Positions 2,671 through 5,889 of a DNA stretch of 28,470 nucleotides are shown here, piece by piece (positions within the stretch are counted from its first letter, which is position 1; each line of letters starts with the position of its first letter). The position numbers were made by a program, and so were the translations under genes. The notes under the pieces were generated by a model. The model saw nothing but the letters and a program-made list of their open reading frames with translations, made no database searches and had not been told where the DNA came from. This stretch comes from a virus. Location: IMG/VR virus record IMGVR_UViG_3300050821_003174, positions 1-28,470 of that record; one strand, given 5' to 3'.

Positions 2671-2835
2671 CTATGCTTCGTAATTCCATTGAATAAGCTC
2701 ATCGTTGAACCAAGGGAAAGTCATACGAAGAAGATCATCACACGTACTACATTTATATCTAAGACCTATAACACCTTCAGCTGGCTCAACTCTTGCTTCA
2801 TTTGATGTATTACATTTACTACAAAATAAAACCAT
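2671..2835 (-). CDS. Zinc-ribbon microprotein downstream of TerL
   Basis: This 54-residue ORF starts MVLFCSKCN and ends FNDELIQWNYEA with a TAG. It carries two CxxC pairs (CSKC near residue 5 and CSTC near residue 31), the layout of a compact zinc ribbon. A weak GAG ribosome site lies just upstream. It starts 63 nt after the TerL stop and fills an otherwise empty stretch. The function is unknown; a nucleic-acid or protein-interaction role is the usual inference for such ribbons. Confidence 0.7.
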   Translation of the reverse strand: MVLFCSKCNTSNEARVEPAEGVIGLRYKCSTCDDLLRMTFPWFNDELIQWNYEA

Positions 2836-2898
2836 TATTATTCTCAATATGGGTAATCATGATTTTGTGGTAGATAGAATATCACGTAATCACATTCA

Positions 2899-5082
2899 TC
2901 ATCGATAATATTTCCTGCTGAAGTCATCATTGAAGATCGATGGGAGATTCCCTTTCTGACCATAACGCGCCTCCAAGAATCTTTGATCGAGCTCTTCCGC
3001 AGTAGTGCCCTGCCGAGTCTTGGATATTGATAGGCACATATACCTAAAAGAATCAGAGTTATGCACGATAGCCCCATTAGCCAACGAAAAATGACCGATT
3101 TCCGGTACGGTAATGTCATATACATCTTCCCTTTCATTGAGATGCTTTACGCTTTCTATAATCAAGGGCTTTGCAATTATTGTGGCAGTACTTCTGTTCA
3201 AACCCATTATTTCTAATAATGCAGTCAAATTCTTGCTGACAATAGAGACAATTCCGTTTCTCTCGTTTCCATTTAGTCCATCCTTGGGCACGCTCAGCTT
3301 GCCGTTTGTGCCACAATATTCCTTCTTCTGATTTATGCCACGCATTTGCTGCATCTTGGCACTTATTTCTGAATTCTGGACTGGATCTTTGCTTGGATAA
3401 GTGATCAGAGGGAGATATGCATTCAAGGTTCCATAGCTTATTGTTCTTGGTGTTTCCATCTCGATGATGAATATGACAATCTTTTGGTATATCTCCGAAA
3501 GCATCTTTCCACACATCCCGATGCAACCTTGTGGTTCCTTTTGCAAAGTATCTTTCTGAAGGCCAAACTCTGTAGAGATATCCATTGAAGTAGCAAGTGA
3601 TTTCATCAAGCCTGATTGGATCGCAGAATCCTTCTCGAGGCTTTCTGCTGATTTCCAGCCGCTCTCCGTCAAGAACATATGATCCGGCGTACATTTCACT
3701 ATCGTACCGTCTTTGAACTTCACTTCCACAAGACTCGCATCTTTTATTGTCATGAACGCTTTGCTGCATTTCTTCCACCCAGATAATGTTAGAACTTCAT
3801 CATTTTCTTCTATACCCATTATCGGTTTTATTCCTGAACTCGTCAAGACCTGAGTATTTCCAGCGAAGCATCCGTGACTCGACCAATCGTGTAATGGTTT
3901 CGTACCGTACATCCGGGTCTTTTCATCTAATACTCTCCTATAGTTCTCAAGACATTTGATGAGTTGCGCACAGTTCTTCTCGTCTATCCAGATGTTATTG
4001 AAACTTGCACGGACATGTTCTATCCCATCCTCAAGGCCAACATTAGCAACAAGGGAGCAATCTTTCAATCCAAGTTCTCGTGCTTTATCTAATCGAGTAA
4101 TACGTGGGCCACCCCATTCAGTCACAGACATATCATGGGGGAAGAAGTGCTTGCCATACATGTAAGGCTTGTCTTTAAGAACTGCCACAAACCAAGCAAG
4201 ATTCTTGTTCGTCTTTTCGTAATAATCAATTACACGCACAACTTGGCCAATTGTTTGGAAGAATACGATAGAAGTCATGTCGTTACCGATATCCCATGCA
4301 GTATGTACTAACGCGGATGATTCCCATGGTACGCAGCCAATCTGGCCTTTAAGTTTGAGCTTATCGATATACTTGCCGTATACAGTTCCCTCAATACCCA
4401 ATTCAAAGCTGCAATAGTATTCTTGCTGAATGAAATCTTCAGAGTTTCCTCTCTTCTCAGACTCCCATGCCTCATCAGAAAGGTGATTGGTATCCTCAAT
4501 GGTCAATTTATAAACAAACCATTCAGGTGATTGTTTGGCTATTTGGTACAGTTCCCACATATGATTCTTACCGCGAGGTGTGGATATAAAGAGAGCTACC
4601 CCACCATTGGCTGCAAGAATTGGGCGTGCAAATTGGTAGGCCATTGGATCTTGTAAGGCATATTCGCTGAACACAATCATCTTGGGATTAGTTCCCACAA
4701 GAGTAGAGTTATAATTATCTGACCCTATAAATTGTATGACTGATCCATTACGTAACTTGATGCGCATCTGCTGTTCGTTTTTGGATTCTATGATCTCTTC
4801 GGGGATAAAGTCCAAAATGCGCTTACCATCAATAGTCAGGTTATCCCACATTACTTTGCGCGCTAATGCGAATGTAGGGAAGCAGTAATAGATAACACAG
4901 ATATGCTCAAGGGCAAATCGGATAACGATGTCCCATGCACATATATCTTTACCACATCTTCTCGGTGCAATTAGTAATACTTTCTTATATCCCTTGTTTT
5001 CTATTGCGTCATAGAGAGGTAATTGATAGCGTCTCGGCGAAAATTGATTGAGTAATATTTGCGATTCGATTGACTGATTCAC
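2899..5082 (-). CDS. terL: Terminase large subunit (TerL), interrupted by an intein
   Basis: The 727-residue precursor becomes a TerL of about 456 residues after removal of residues 405-675. The ATPase half shows a Walker A-type loop APRRCGKD (39-46), a Walker B strand MIVFSE (135-140) and the coupling motif FISTPRGK (165-172). The nuclease half shows TAWDIG (D264), FPHD (H316, D317) and, rejoined across the intein, the WSSHG plus SDSFRY motif, whose Asp677 is the third metal ligand. TerL translocates DNA into the procapsid and cuts it. The start is GTG with an AGAGGA site upstream, overlapping the stop of the preceding endonuclease gene by four bases. TerL is active only after splicing if the nuclease centre needs motif III. 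Residue assignments are by eye. Confidence 0.95.
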   Translation of the reverse strand: MNQSIESQILLNQFSPRRYQLPLYDAIENKGYKKVLLIAPRRCGKDICAWDIVIRFALEHICVIYYCFPTFALARKVMWDNLTIDGKRILDFIPEEIIESKNEQQMRIKLRNGSVIQFIGSDNYNSTLVGTNPKMIVFSEYALQDPMAYQFARPILAANGGVALFISTPRGKNHMWELYQIAKQSPEWFVYKLTIEDTNHLSDEAWESEKRGNSEDFIQQEYYCSFELGIEGTVYGKYIDKLKLKGQIGCVPWESSALVHTAWDIGNDMTSIVFFQTIGQVVRVIDYYEKTNKNLAWFVAVLKDKPYMYGKHFFPHDMSVTEWGGPRITRLDKARELGLKDCSLVANVGLEDGIEHVRASFNNIWIDEKNCAQLIKCLENYRRVLDEKTRMYGTKPLHDWSSHGCFAGNTQVLTSSGIKPIMGIEENDEVLTLSGWKKCSKAFMTIKDASLVEVKFKDGTIVKCTPDHMFLTESGWKSAESLEKDSAIQSGLMKSLATSMDISTEFGLQKDTLQKEPQGCIGMCGKMLSEIYQKIVIFIIEMETPRTISYGTLNAYLPLITYPSKDPVQNSEISAKMQQMRGINQKKEYCGTNGKLSVPKDGLNGNERNGIVSIVSKNLTALLEIMGLNRSTATIIAKPLIIESVKHLNEREDVYDITVPEIGHFSLANGAIVHNSDSFRYMCLSISKTRQGTTAEELDQRFLEARYGQKGNLPSIFNDDFSRKYYR
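3058..3870 (-). other. Intein in TerL (protein-splicing element with a frame-shifted endonuclease in its linker)
   Basis: The intein spans TerL residues 405-675 (271 residues). It begins with Cys1 (CFAGNTQVLTSSG, block A) and has block B (CTPDHMF, with the Thr-x-x-His pair T465/H468). Block F is VYDITVPEIGHFSL, and it ends with VHN followed by Ser as the first C-extein residue (block G). All splicing residues needed for a class 1 intein are present: Cys1, block B His, penultimate His674, terminal Asn675 and Ser+1. The N-terminal splicing domain covers about 90 residues and the C-terminal one about 30. The roughly 150-residue linker between them has no endonuclease motif in the splicing frame; the same DNA encodes an HNH enzyme in another frame (3134-3778). 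Confidence 0.93.
3134..3778 (-). CDS. HNH homing endonuclease nested out of frame inside the TerL intein
   Basis: An open frame of 214 codons on the same strand as TerL but in a different frame. Residues 60-126 match phage HNH enzymes: FNGYLYRVWPSERYF, then LHRDVWKDAFG, then HIHHRDGNTKNNKLWNLE and PSDH. The putative catalytic residues are H104, H105, N113 and H126. The C-terminus carries CLYC (177-180) and YCHNNC (197-202), a likely zinc finger. The stop falls immediately before intein block F. The frame opens with GTG at 3778, but residues 1-52 overlap the conserved intein block B and are probably only a by-product, so the true start is uncertain; ATG at 3694 is one alternative, and no ATG, GTG or TTG lies between codons 50 and 60. 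Role (inferred): cutting intein-less terL alleles to spread the intein. Confidence 0.82.
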   Translation of the reverse strand: MEEMQQSVHDNKRCESCGSEVQRRYDSEMYAGSYVLDGERLEISRKPREGFCDPIRLDEITCYFNGYLYRVWPSERYFAKGTTRLHRDVWKDAFGDIPKDCHIHHRDGNTKNNKLWNLECISPSDHLSKQRSSPEFRNKCQDAANAWHKSEEGILWHKRQAERAQGWTKWKREKRNCLYCQQEFDCIIRNNGFEQKYCHNNCKALDYRKRKASQ

Positions 5083-5591
5083 GCATTCCTCTTGCTATTG
5101 CGCCTATTATTATTATTTTCTTTACAGGTAGTCCAGCGACAATTGTCCTTTGAATAAGGGCCATTATTATCTATACGATCTATCTGTAATCCAGCTGGAC
5201 GGTCGCCCATATCCTCATAAAATAATTCAAACTTATGCCATCTATCGCAAAGAGTAATACCACGGCCCCCATAATTCTTATATGCCTTATTATTGGGATT
5301 GAGACAACGAGCCTTGATCCCCATCCAGATGATCCATATTGAAGTCAGCTTCATGCCATGAGTGGAAGTTAGCCTTGCCTTGCATTCACCACAACGGAAA
5401 ATCTTACTCCTACGCAAAGCAGAACCATTACATACACGTCTATTACCGCATTCACAAATGCATTCATAATGTAGATTAGACCTATCGGTGTGACTATAGC
5501 CAATAACGGTTAATTGACCGAACTTCTTACCAAGCATATCCTGAATTCTTGGCGCATTGAGTCGCTGATATACTTCTTCGGAATGTCTCAT
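5079..5591 (-). CDS. HNH/AP2-type endonuclease-like protein upstream of TerL
   Basis: With the ATG at 5591 the protein has 170 residues. This start is preferred because GAGGAG lies just upstream and overlaps the preceding stop; a longer version from 5654 would overlap that gene by 56 nt. The protein shows LGKKFGQLTVIGYS, then CICECGN with a second Cys pair (CGEC) forming a probable zinc site. It continues with WMGIKARCLNPNNKAYKNYG, GRGITLCDRW, FYEDMGDRP and DRIDNNGPYSKDNCRW. This order is typical of the phage HNH endonucleases that carry an AP2-like DNA-binding region. They are usually free-standing homing endonucleases. It overlaps the TerL start by four bases (GTGA), so its translation is coupled to TerL. 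Confidence 0.85.
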   Translation of the reverse strand: MRHSEEVYQRLNAPRIQDMLGKKFGQLTVIGYSHTDRSNLHYECICECGNRRVCNGSALRRSKIFRCGECKARLTSTHGMKLTSIWIIWMGIKARCLNPNNKAYKNYGGRGITLCDRWHKFELFYEDMGDRPAGLQIDRIDNNGPYSKDNCRWTTCKENNNNRRNSKRNA

Positions 5592-5598
5592 CGTCTCC

Positions 5599-5889
5599 TC
5601 ATATCTTACTCGCCACATATTCTTCAATGAGATGCACGCCTTCTCTTTCAACAAACTGGATTGTCTTTGTTTCAGCTTGCTTAATAAGCTTATCTTTCTC
5701 TGTAATGAGCGATGCCTCTATCTCTTGAGCAGTCTTTGATTGGGCTATCGCTTGTATTAATTCTGTAAGACCAATAATATGGTGAACATGTTGAATTGGT
5801 GTCTCGACTACTGGTTGTGGTTTTTTCCTTATTCTCCAGCAACACCCAGCAAAAGTGATTGGTAATAGTAACAACAATAACTTATTCAT
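5599..5889 (-). CDS. Small lipoprotein
   Basis: A 96-residue protein with an N-terminal Lys-flanked hydrophobic segment (MNKLLLLLLPITFAG) ending in FAGCC, an acceptable lipobox with Cys16 as the lipidated residue. The mature part is helical and charged (QSKTAQEIEASLITEKDKL). It would sit on the outer face of the inner membrane or on the outer membrane. Its ribosome site (AAAGGA) lies within the end of the upstream gene. Small phage lipoproteins act as outer spanins or superinfection-exclusion factors; neither role can be chosen from sequence. It resembles the product of 7816-8082 in layout. Confidence 0.7.
   Translation of the reverse strand: MNKLLLLLLPITFAGCCWRIRKKPQPVVETPIQHVHHIIGLTELIQAIAQSKTAQEIEASLITEKDKLIKQAETKTIQFVEREGVHLIEEYVASKI

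Follow-up and report, generated by a model that had tools for sequence, protein, structure and literature searches.

The intein in the terminase large subunit gene (terL) of the window, which is the whole 28,470-nucleotide stretch of viral DNA analyzed here, and the HNH endonuclease gene lying out of frame inside this intein very likely constitute one composite homing element, from which the HNH protein would be expressed separately. The nesting of the two genes, its spread, selection on both reading frames, and promoter- and SD-like signals beyond the requirements of the encoded protein were all observed. We infer how the HNH gene is transcribed and translated, and likewise splicing, cleavage specificity and homing, as follows. 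Translation of terL would read through the entire insert, the two Hint halves (residues 1-90 and 233-271) would splice out, and the HNH DNA, as read in the terL frame, would yield an expendable and disordered linker. The HNH protein would be made apart, from an internal start codon, with transcription starting in most members from a promoter within the N-terminal codons of the intein. It would then cut intein-less terL near HDWSSHxxDxxRY, and repair would copy intein and endonuclease together.

We also lean, less firmly, towards a wider reading: a large class of phage inteins that can be mistaken for endonuclease-less mini-inteins would carry a shifted-frame homing-endonuclease transcription unit, which would have arisen more than once (once in the opposite register), with block B of the intein doubling as part of the zinc-binding end of the nuclease. 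The customary division of inteins is between those that contain an in-frame endonuclease and 'mini' inteins that lack one. The terL class breaks this rule, since its mobile enzyme is present yet invisible to in-frame annotation. On this reading the same bases of an essential gene can encode two proteins and also hold a promoter.

The terL intein and the nested HNH gene

The terL ORF matches the Pfam families Terminase_6N and Intein_splicing (5.8e-13), and an in-frame endonuclease was not found in it by Pfam. The insertion point in the window is the TerL motif HDWSSHG^SDSFRY. Among 43 relatives the splicing residues C1, T61, H64 and N271 are invariant and H270 is conserved in at least 90%; all of them are intact in the window, where the +1 residue is Ser. 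Foldseek matched the intein model to the gp41-1 intein (E 1.4e-7) and to DnaB and RecA inteins. With these residues, a predicted Hint fold and a position in frame with intein-less alleles, the insert is an intein, which would be self-splicing.

The nested gene lies in the +2 frame relative to terL, and its product matches HNH_3 (Pfam, E=1.5e-11) and phrog_15471 (6e-20). Since alignment places the intein at 3058-3870, the HNH gene is located entirely inside intein DNA. Its start codon is either GTG 3778 or ATG 3769, with a weak SD, and its stop codon coincides with intein residues 245-246, where block F begins. In the splicing frame the linker contains KIVIFIIEMETPRT, which is the shadow of DCHIHHRDGNTKNN in the HNH frame. 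The sequence-only reading had described precisely this arrangement, namely a TerL intein lacking an in-frame endonuclease, an HNH ORF out of frame within it that ends right before block F, and a linker reading KIVIFIIEMETPRT, and each of these points was confirmed, down to the exact ORF on the minus strand. The FIIxMxTxxT flavour that it ascribed to other phage intein linkers was also recovered in relatives (IAIFIIEMEI... in L022, IMFTIKMKT... in L032); it arises because such linkers are the frame shadow of HxHHxDxN.

The HNH protein alignment contains 25 invariant columns across 43 relatives, and the catalytic and zinc residues are intact in the window. The HNH-frame product was modelled by AlphaFold2 with a pLDDT of 86; the top Foldseek match of this model, I-HmuI, is weak (E 0.07). 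The nested ORF has the HNH (beta-beta-alpha metal) motif together with zinc sites, and its product would cleave intein-less terL. Full-text literature searches turned up no description of terL inteins that carry an out-of-frame endonuclease; a preprint on actinobacteriophage inteins (10.1101/2025.01.02.630785), which mentions a 'non-canonical architecture', may describe related cases.

Table 1. Positions in the window of the terL ORF, its intein, the nested HNH gene and the associated signals.
Feature	Position	Strand	Details
terL ORF, terminase large subunit, intein-interrupted	2899..5082	(-)	727 aa, about 456 aa once spliced; ORF list, Pfam Terminase_6N
Intein, 271 aa	3058..3870	(-)	Cys1 ... 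His270-Asn271, +1 Ser; bounds by alignment to relatives; Pfam Intein_splicing
N-terminal splicing (Hint) domain, intein residues 1-90	3601..3870	(-)	AlphaFold2 pLDDT about 95
Intein linker, splicing frame, residues 91-232	3175..3600	(-)	pLDDT <50, predicted disordered
C-terminal splicing domain, blocks F and G, residues 233-271	3058..3174	(-)	pLDDT >90
Dual-coded stretch: intein block B (T61-P-D-H64) and HNH E28-M-Y-A-G32 in the same bases	3679..3697	(-)	Frozen wobble bases
Nested HNH endonuclease gene, +2 frame relative to terL	3134..3778	(-)	214 aa; stop 3134-3136; Pfam HNH_3, PHROG HNH
HNH catalytic core, HNH_3 match, residues 85-126, CHIHHRDGNTKNNKLWNLEC	3401..3526	(-)	H104, H105, N113, N117 and H126 invariant (43 relatives)
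C-terminal zinc finger of the HNH protein: C177, C180, C198, C202	3173..3250	(-)	Invariant columns
-35-like hexamer TTGACG	3841..3846	(-)	Best promoter-like match in 2800-5200 (10/12); highest PWM score within the terL ORF
-10-like hexamer GATAAT, 17-nt spacer to -35	3818..3823	(-)	PWM scan and codon tests in relatives

Selection on the two reading frames

Stop codons were analyzed in 66 representatives sharing <80% identity, using synonymous codon shuffling with one of the two proteins held fixed. With the TerL protein fixed, the HNH frame of the window would hold 7.4 stops and none of 1000 shuffles was open; over all 66 representatives 398 stops were expected in the HNH frame and 0 observed. 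Conversely, with the HNH protein fixed, 126 stops were expected in the terL-frame linker and again 0 were observed. The third, unused frame, also with the HNH protein fixed, contained 1043 stops compared to 1035 expected, showing that the shuffling test is calibrated. The preference for one frame can be explained by the number of stops to be avoided, because the unused register would carry about 16 per gene and the used one about 2. In L157, the single locus with the rare register, 0 stops were found where 7 were expected.

Substitution rates were compared in 33 disjoint pairs. In the linker, the HNH frame has a dN/dS of 0.15 compared to about 1.2 for the terL frame; the value for the N-intein ahead of the overlap is 0.24 in the same pairs. 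The HNH frame is thus under strong purifying selection across the linker. The value of about 1.2 together with the lack of any stop in the terL frame shows that the linker peptide is free in sequence while its frame must stay open. The AlphaFold2 model agrees with the dN/dS values, since both intein halves fold and the linker (91-232) does not. These comparisons bear out what had been proposed from the single sequence: the two open frames exceed chance, and the intein tolerates the shifted translation as a linker, the dN/dS comparison in both frames that had been suggested as a check giving clearly different values for the two. The terL inteins also provide long natural linkers that vary freely.

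Homing endonuclease genes often decay after fixation, and the HNH reading could on these general grounds be a dead relic, or else a chance shadow of the intein linker. This is extremely unlikely given the dN/dS of 0.15 over the disjoint pairs, the 25 columns invariant among the 43 relatives, the intact catalytic and zinc residues of the window and the 398 expected stops of which none was observed.

Beyond what the sequence-only reading had described, the overlap is not confined to the linker: the zinc-finger end of the HNH protein also overlaps block B, and constraint acts there on the two frames alike. Among 44 type-1 representatives the block-B codons have frozen wobble bases (Val GTG 43/43, Thr ACG 44/44, Pro CCG 41/41, Asp GAT 34/34), a bias with P values between 4e-14 and 1e-23 when compared to the codon usage of the same genes, and the frozen bases preserve E-M-[YH]-A-G in the HNH frame. 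Directly before the block-B stretch an N-terminal CxxC is encoded, which co-occurs with two cysteines of the HNH core: all are present in 35 of 39 type-1 members and all are absent in 14 of 20 type-2 members. This co-occurrence suggests a zinc site that is made partly from the block-B overlap.

Promoter-like and SD-like signals ahead of the HNH start

Frozen wobble bases also occur ahead of the HNH start, in DNA on which the HNH frame makes no demand, where the type-1 relatives share TTGACR-17-GATAAT. This element has the top sigma70 score of the entire terL ORF in most type-1 representatives and is located 39-45 nt before the HNH start. Rare codons are used at both hexamers, with Leu encoded by TTG in 36 of 41 cases (8.1 expected) and Ile by ATA in 36 of 41 (8.8 expected). 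Resampling with the TerL protein kept resulted in a combined P of 6e-23, which, like the other combined promoter and SD values reported below, overstates independence because the loci share ancestry; controls farther upstream gave 0.29-0.92, and the window alone is not significant (p 0.157). In the low-GC type 2b the signal is weaker and Bacteroidota-like (TAnnTTTG, P 6e-4). A third group, type 2a, has a promoter P of 2.5e-7 and includes L226, in which TTGACA-17-TATAAT precedes AAGGAG and an ATG. Enrichment of SD-like sites is seen at the HNH start (P 3e-6 and 1.5e-5), while shifted control positions are flat; the low-GC members of type 2b show no SD. The codon-level contrasts and the flat controls are safer evidence for a promoter than the combined P values. 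In type-1 relatives the -35 and -10 hexamers at sigma70 spacing exceed the needs of the TerL protein, and transcription would start from them.

The 17-nt spacer is itself conserved (CGTnnCGGAAnGyGTC), both in the window (3818-3846) and in type-1 relatives. When inspected by eye, it often lies within an inverted repeat, TGACRCGTT..AACGYGTCA, which is present at many type-1 loci and absent from the window.

Conservation of the spacer goes beyond what a promoter alone needs, so that the element might have another role, for instance as an RNA or DNA binding site, with the HNH protein translated from the terL transcript alone. We regard this as unlikely, since the constraint reaches no farther than the -35 and -10 hexamers, the spacing is fixed at 17 nt, and other lineages have different promoter motifs at a similar distance.

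A third way of producing the enzyme would be a fusion to the N-domain of the intein by -1 ribosomal frameshifting, to which the +2 relation of the frames, equal to a -1 shift, and the overlap of the HNH frame with the N-domain would correspond. Canonical slippery heptamers, however, occur in only 8 of 44 type-1 and 9 of 23 type-2 representatives and at no fixed place; instead, the enriched signals are those of a start codon, an SD and a promoter, and at several loci the HNH frame opens just a few codons ahead of the start. Programmed frameshifting was rejected because the slippery site is not conserved, and a fusion of this kind is very improbable. Separate expression of the HNH protein from its own start is the reading that we retain.

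The Tetrasphaera phage TJE1 locus (L030) has a -10-like TACATT 12 nt ahead of its HNH ATG (about 2458-2473), which would fit a leaderless transcript.

Distribution, mobility and related systems

Loci were collected by HNH sequence similarity alone and not by nesting. A comparison of the HNH protein of the window to IMG/VR revealed five more nested cases, in low- and high-G+C contigs. The nesting is also present in annotated phages (Rhodobacteraceae phage LS06-2018-MD07, Tetrasphaera phage TJE1, Acinetobacter phage Highwayman and one gut phage contig); among the matches listed from INPHARED, TJE1 is the only actinobacterial phage carrier. In the records of the three named phages terL alone is annotated at the locus. 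In a profile scan all of at least 80 viral loci (80/80) had a +2-frame HNH inside an intein-bearing terL ORF. With a second HNH profile at least 61 of 80 loci were nested, 60 in the +2 frame and one (L157) in +1, and 19 were free-standing; these loci partly repeat contigs found earlier. Locus totals are lower bounds. Nested genes were furthermore detected in 14 bacterial or archaeal contigs (Bacteroides, Parabacteroides, Frankia, Selenomonadaceae, Thermoplasmatales and others). In all, at least about 150 contigs from unrelated phages carry the nesting, and among the matches listed the host gene is terL in every nested case. The suspicion that the arrangement is a widespread class was therefore justified, and its homologues have both frames open in all of at least 80 loci (80/80) that were not chosen for openness. 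A sequencing frameshift joining two frames, which had been named as a possible artefact, is ruled out by the about 150 contigs, annotated phage genomes included.

In L157 (2480-3136) the HNH gene within the terL intein occupies the other shifted register (+1) and seems to have originated independently. Type-1 inteins occupy several adjacent insertion points in one TerL motif (HDW^S^SH^x^xDAxRY), with Ser, Cys or Thr always at +1, which is unusual for a homing element.

Eighteen intein-less TerL relatives are continuous across the site HDWSSHG^(A/S)DxxRY, the closest (L001) being 76% identical. An HNH of this type was found at none of these 18 loci within the fetched flanks. The distance between HNH proteins correlates with that between splicing domains (r 0.56) and hardly with that between TerL proteins (r 0.19). 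L035 and L083 have 79% of TerL in common, yet only about half of intein and HNH, and intein and HNH are patchy among similar TerLs. By these sequence comparisons the distribution of the element is uncoupled from the TerL phylogeny.

Free-standing relatives of the HNH gene adjoin terL, many between terL and the portal gene (PAE1, SN1, L126, L129, L132-L135 and the 19 second-profile loci). This location would suit a protein that serves DNA packaging, as a terminase-associated enzyme of the HK97 gp74 type, and is merely stored in the intein. But the lack of a nearby HNH at 18/18 intein-less TerL loci argues against an essential packaging role, and the HNH follows the intein, with its patchy distribution among similar TerLs, and not TerL itself. 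We consider such a role improbable and homing the better explanation. In a tree with many weakly supported forks type 1 forms one clade and the free-standing relatives interleave with nested type-2 genes, which suggests repeated moves. It is plausible that the HNH gene invaded a pre-existing mini-intein. These loci offer a testable route by which endonuclease genes may enter and leave inteins: free-standing beside terL, nested, then split.

The nearest precedent found is the ShiLan domain, or Pacc40 gp60 insertion, in phage DNA methylases, where an HNH with zinc fingers is encoded out of frame and is patchily distributed, suggesting homing (PMC11855218). Both are stop-free insertions with an out-of-frame HNH, and ShiLan, with its GTG start at bp 18, shares the +2 offset (PMC11855218). 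Its authors find no splicing domain, and the shifted peptide is thought to remain in the methylase (PMC11855218). The terL element, in contrast, has a complete intein, and is thus not classed as a ShiLan-type insertion; moreover, its nuclease overlaps block B and is preceded by a promoter-like element. The promoter and the dual coding at block B are the unexpected parts of the terL element. The problem of expression that was raised for the ShiLan element becomes testable in named phages.

Canonical large inteins likewise combine splicing domains with a homing-type nuclease, as in the CL131 dCTP deaminase, which has HintN and an in-frame HNH_3 (PMC6293099); there the nuclease is within the intein polypeptide, whereas that of the terL element is a separate protein of another frame. 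L146 and L147, from the bacterial and archaeal contig set, are HNH inteins with the enzyme in frame. The endonucleases I-TevI, I-TevII and I-TevIII of the T4 group I introns have their own internal promoter and RBS (PMC2988022). They are similarly nested in a splicing element, but in an RNA intron that does not code for the host protein, while the terL element is coding in both frames. A homing-site-like operator as for I-TevI was not found in the terL element when the promoter element was compared to terL. The spacer as a homing-site mimic (I-TevI-style autorepression) was rejected, since the similarity of the element to the terL target does not exceed that to other stretches of terL (mean rank p 0.51-0.60).

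In split inteins ('fractured genes') a free nuclease gene lies between the intein halves, and the terL element resembles them in having a separate nuclease gene between its halves; however, the terL frame is unbroken in the window and the nested loci. A split intein with an intervening nuclease gene was rejected for the window, in which the terL frame is open through the insert. A related arrangement is present in Vibrio phages 1.238 and 1.245 (L228 and L229), where the terL/intein frame is broken by stops and the annotation lists terL and a separate 'hedgehog/hint domain protein'; here the intein is probably split, and the HNH gene lies between its halves and overlaps them. In L021 (2208-3002) and L020 the halves of ribonucleotide reductase inteins are separated by stops, and in L021 a GIY-YIG-like ORF is located between them in another frame.

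Directly upstream of terL in the window, and overlapping it, is an ORF at 5079-5654 (-) with no Pfam match and a C-terminal GLQIDRIDNNGPYSKDNCRWTT motif, which we take to resemble AP2/HNH-type nucleases. Relatives of this ORF are also present near other terL genes (L005, L013, L014). The terL of L019 (2968-5574) has a different intein elsewhere, after FISC in the ATPase half, with an in-frame LAGLIDADG-like endonuclease.
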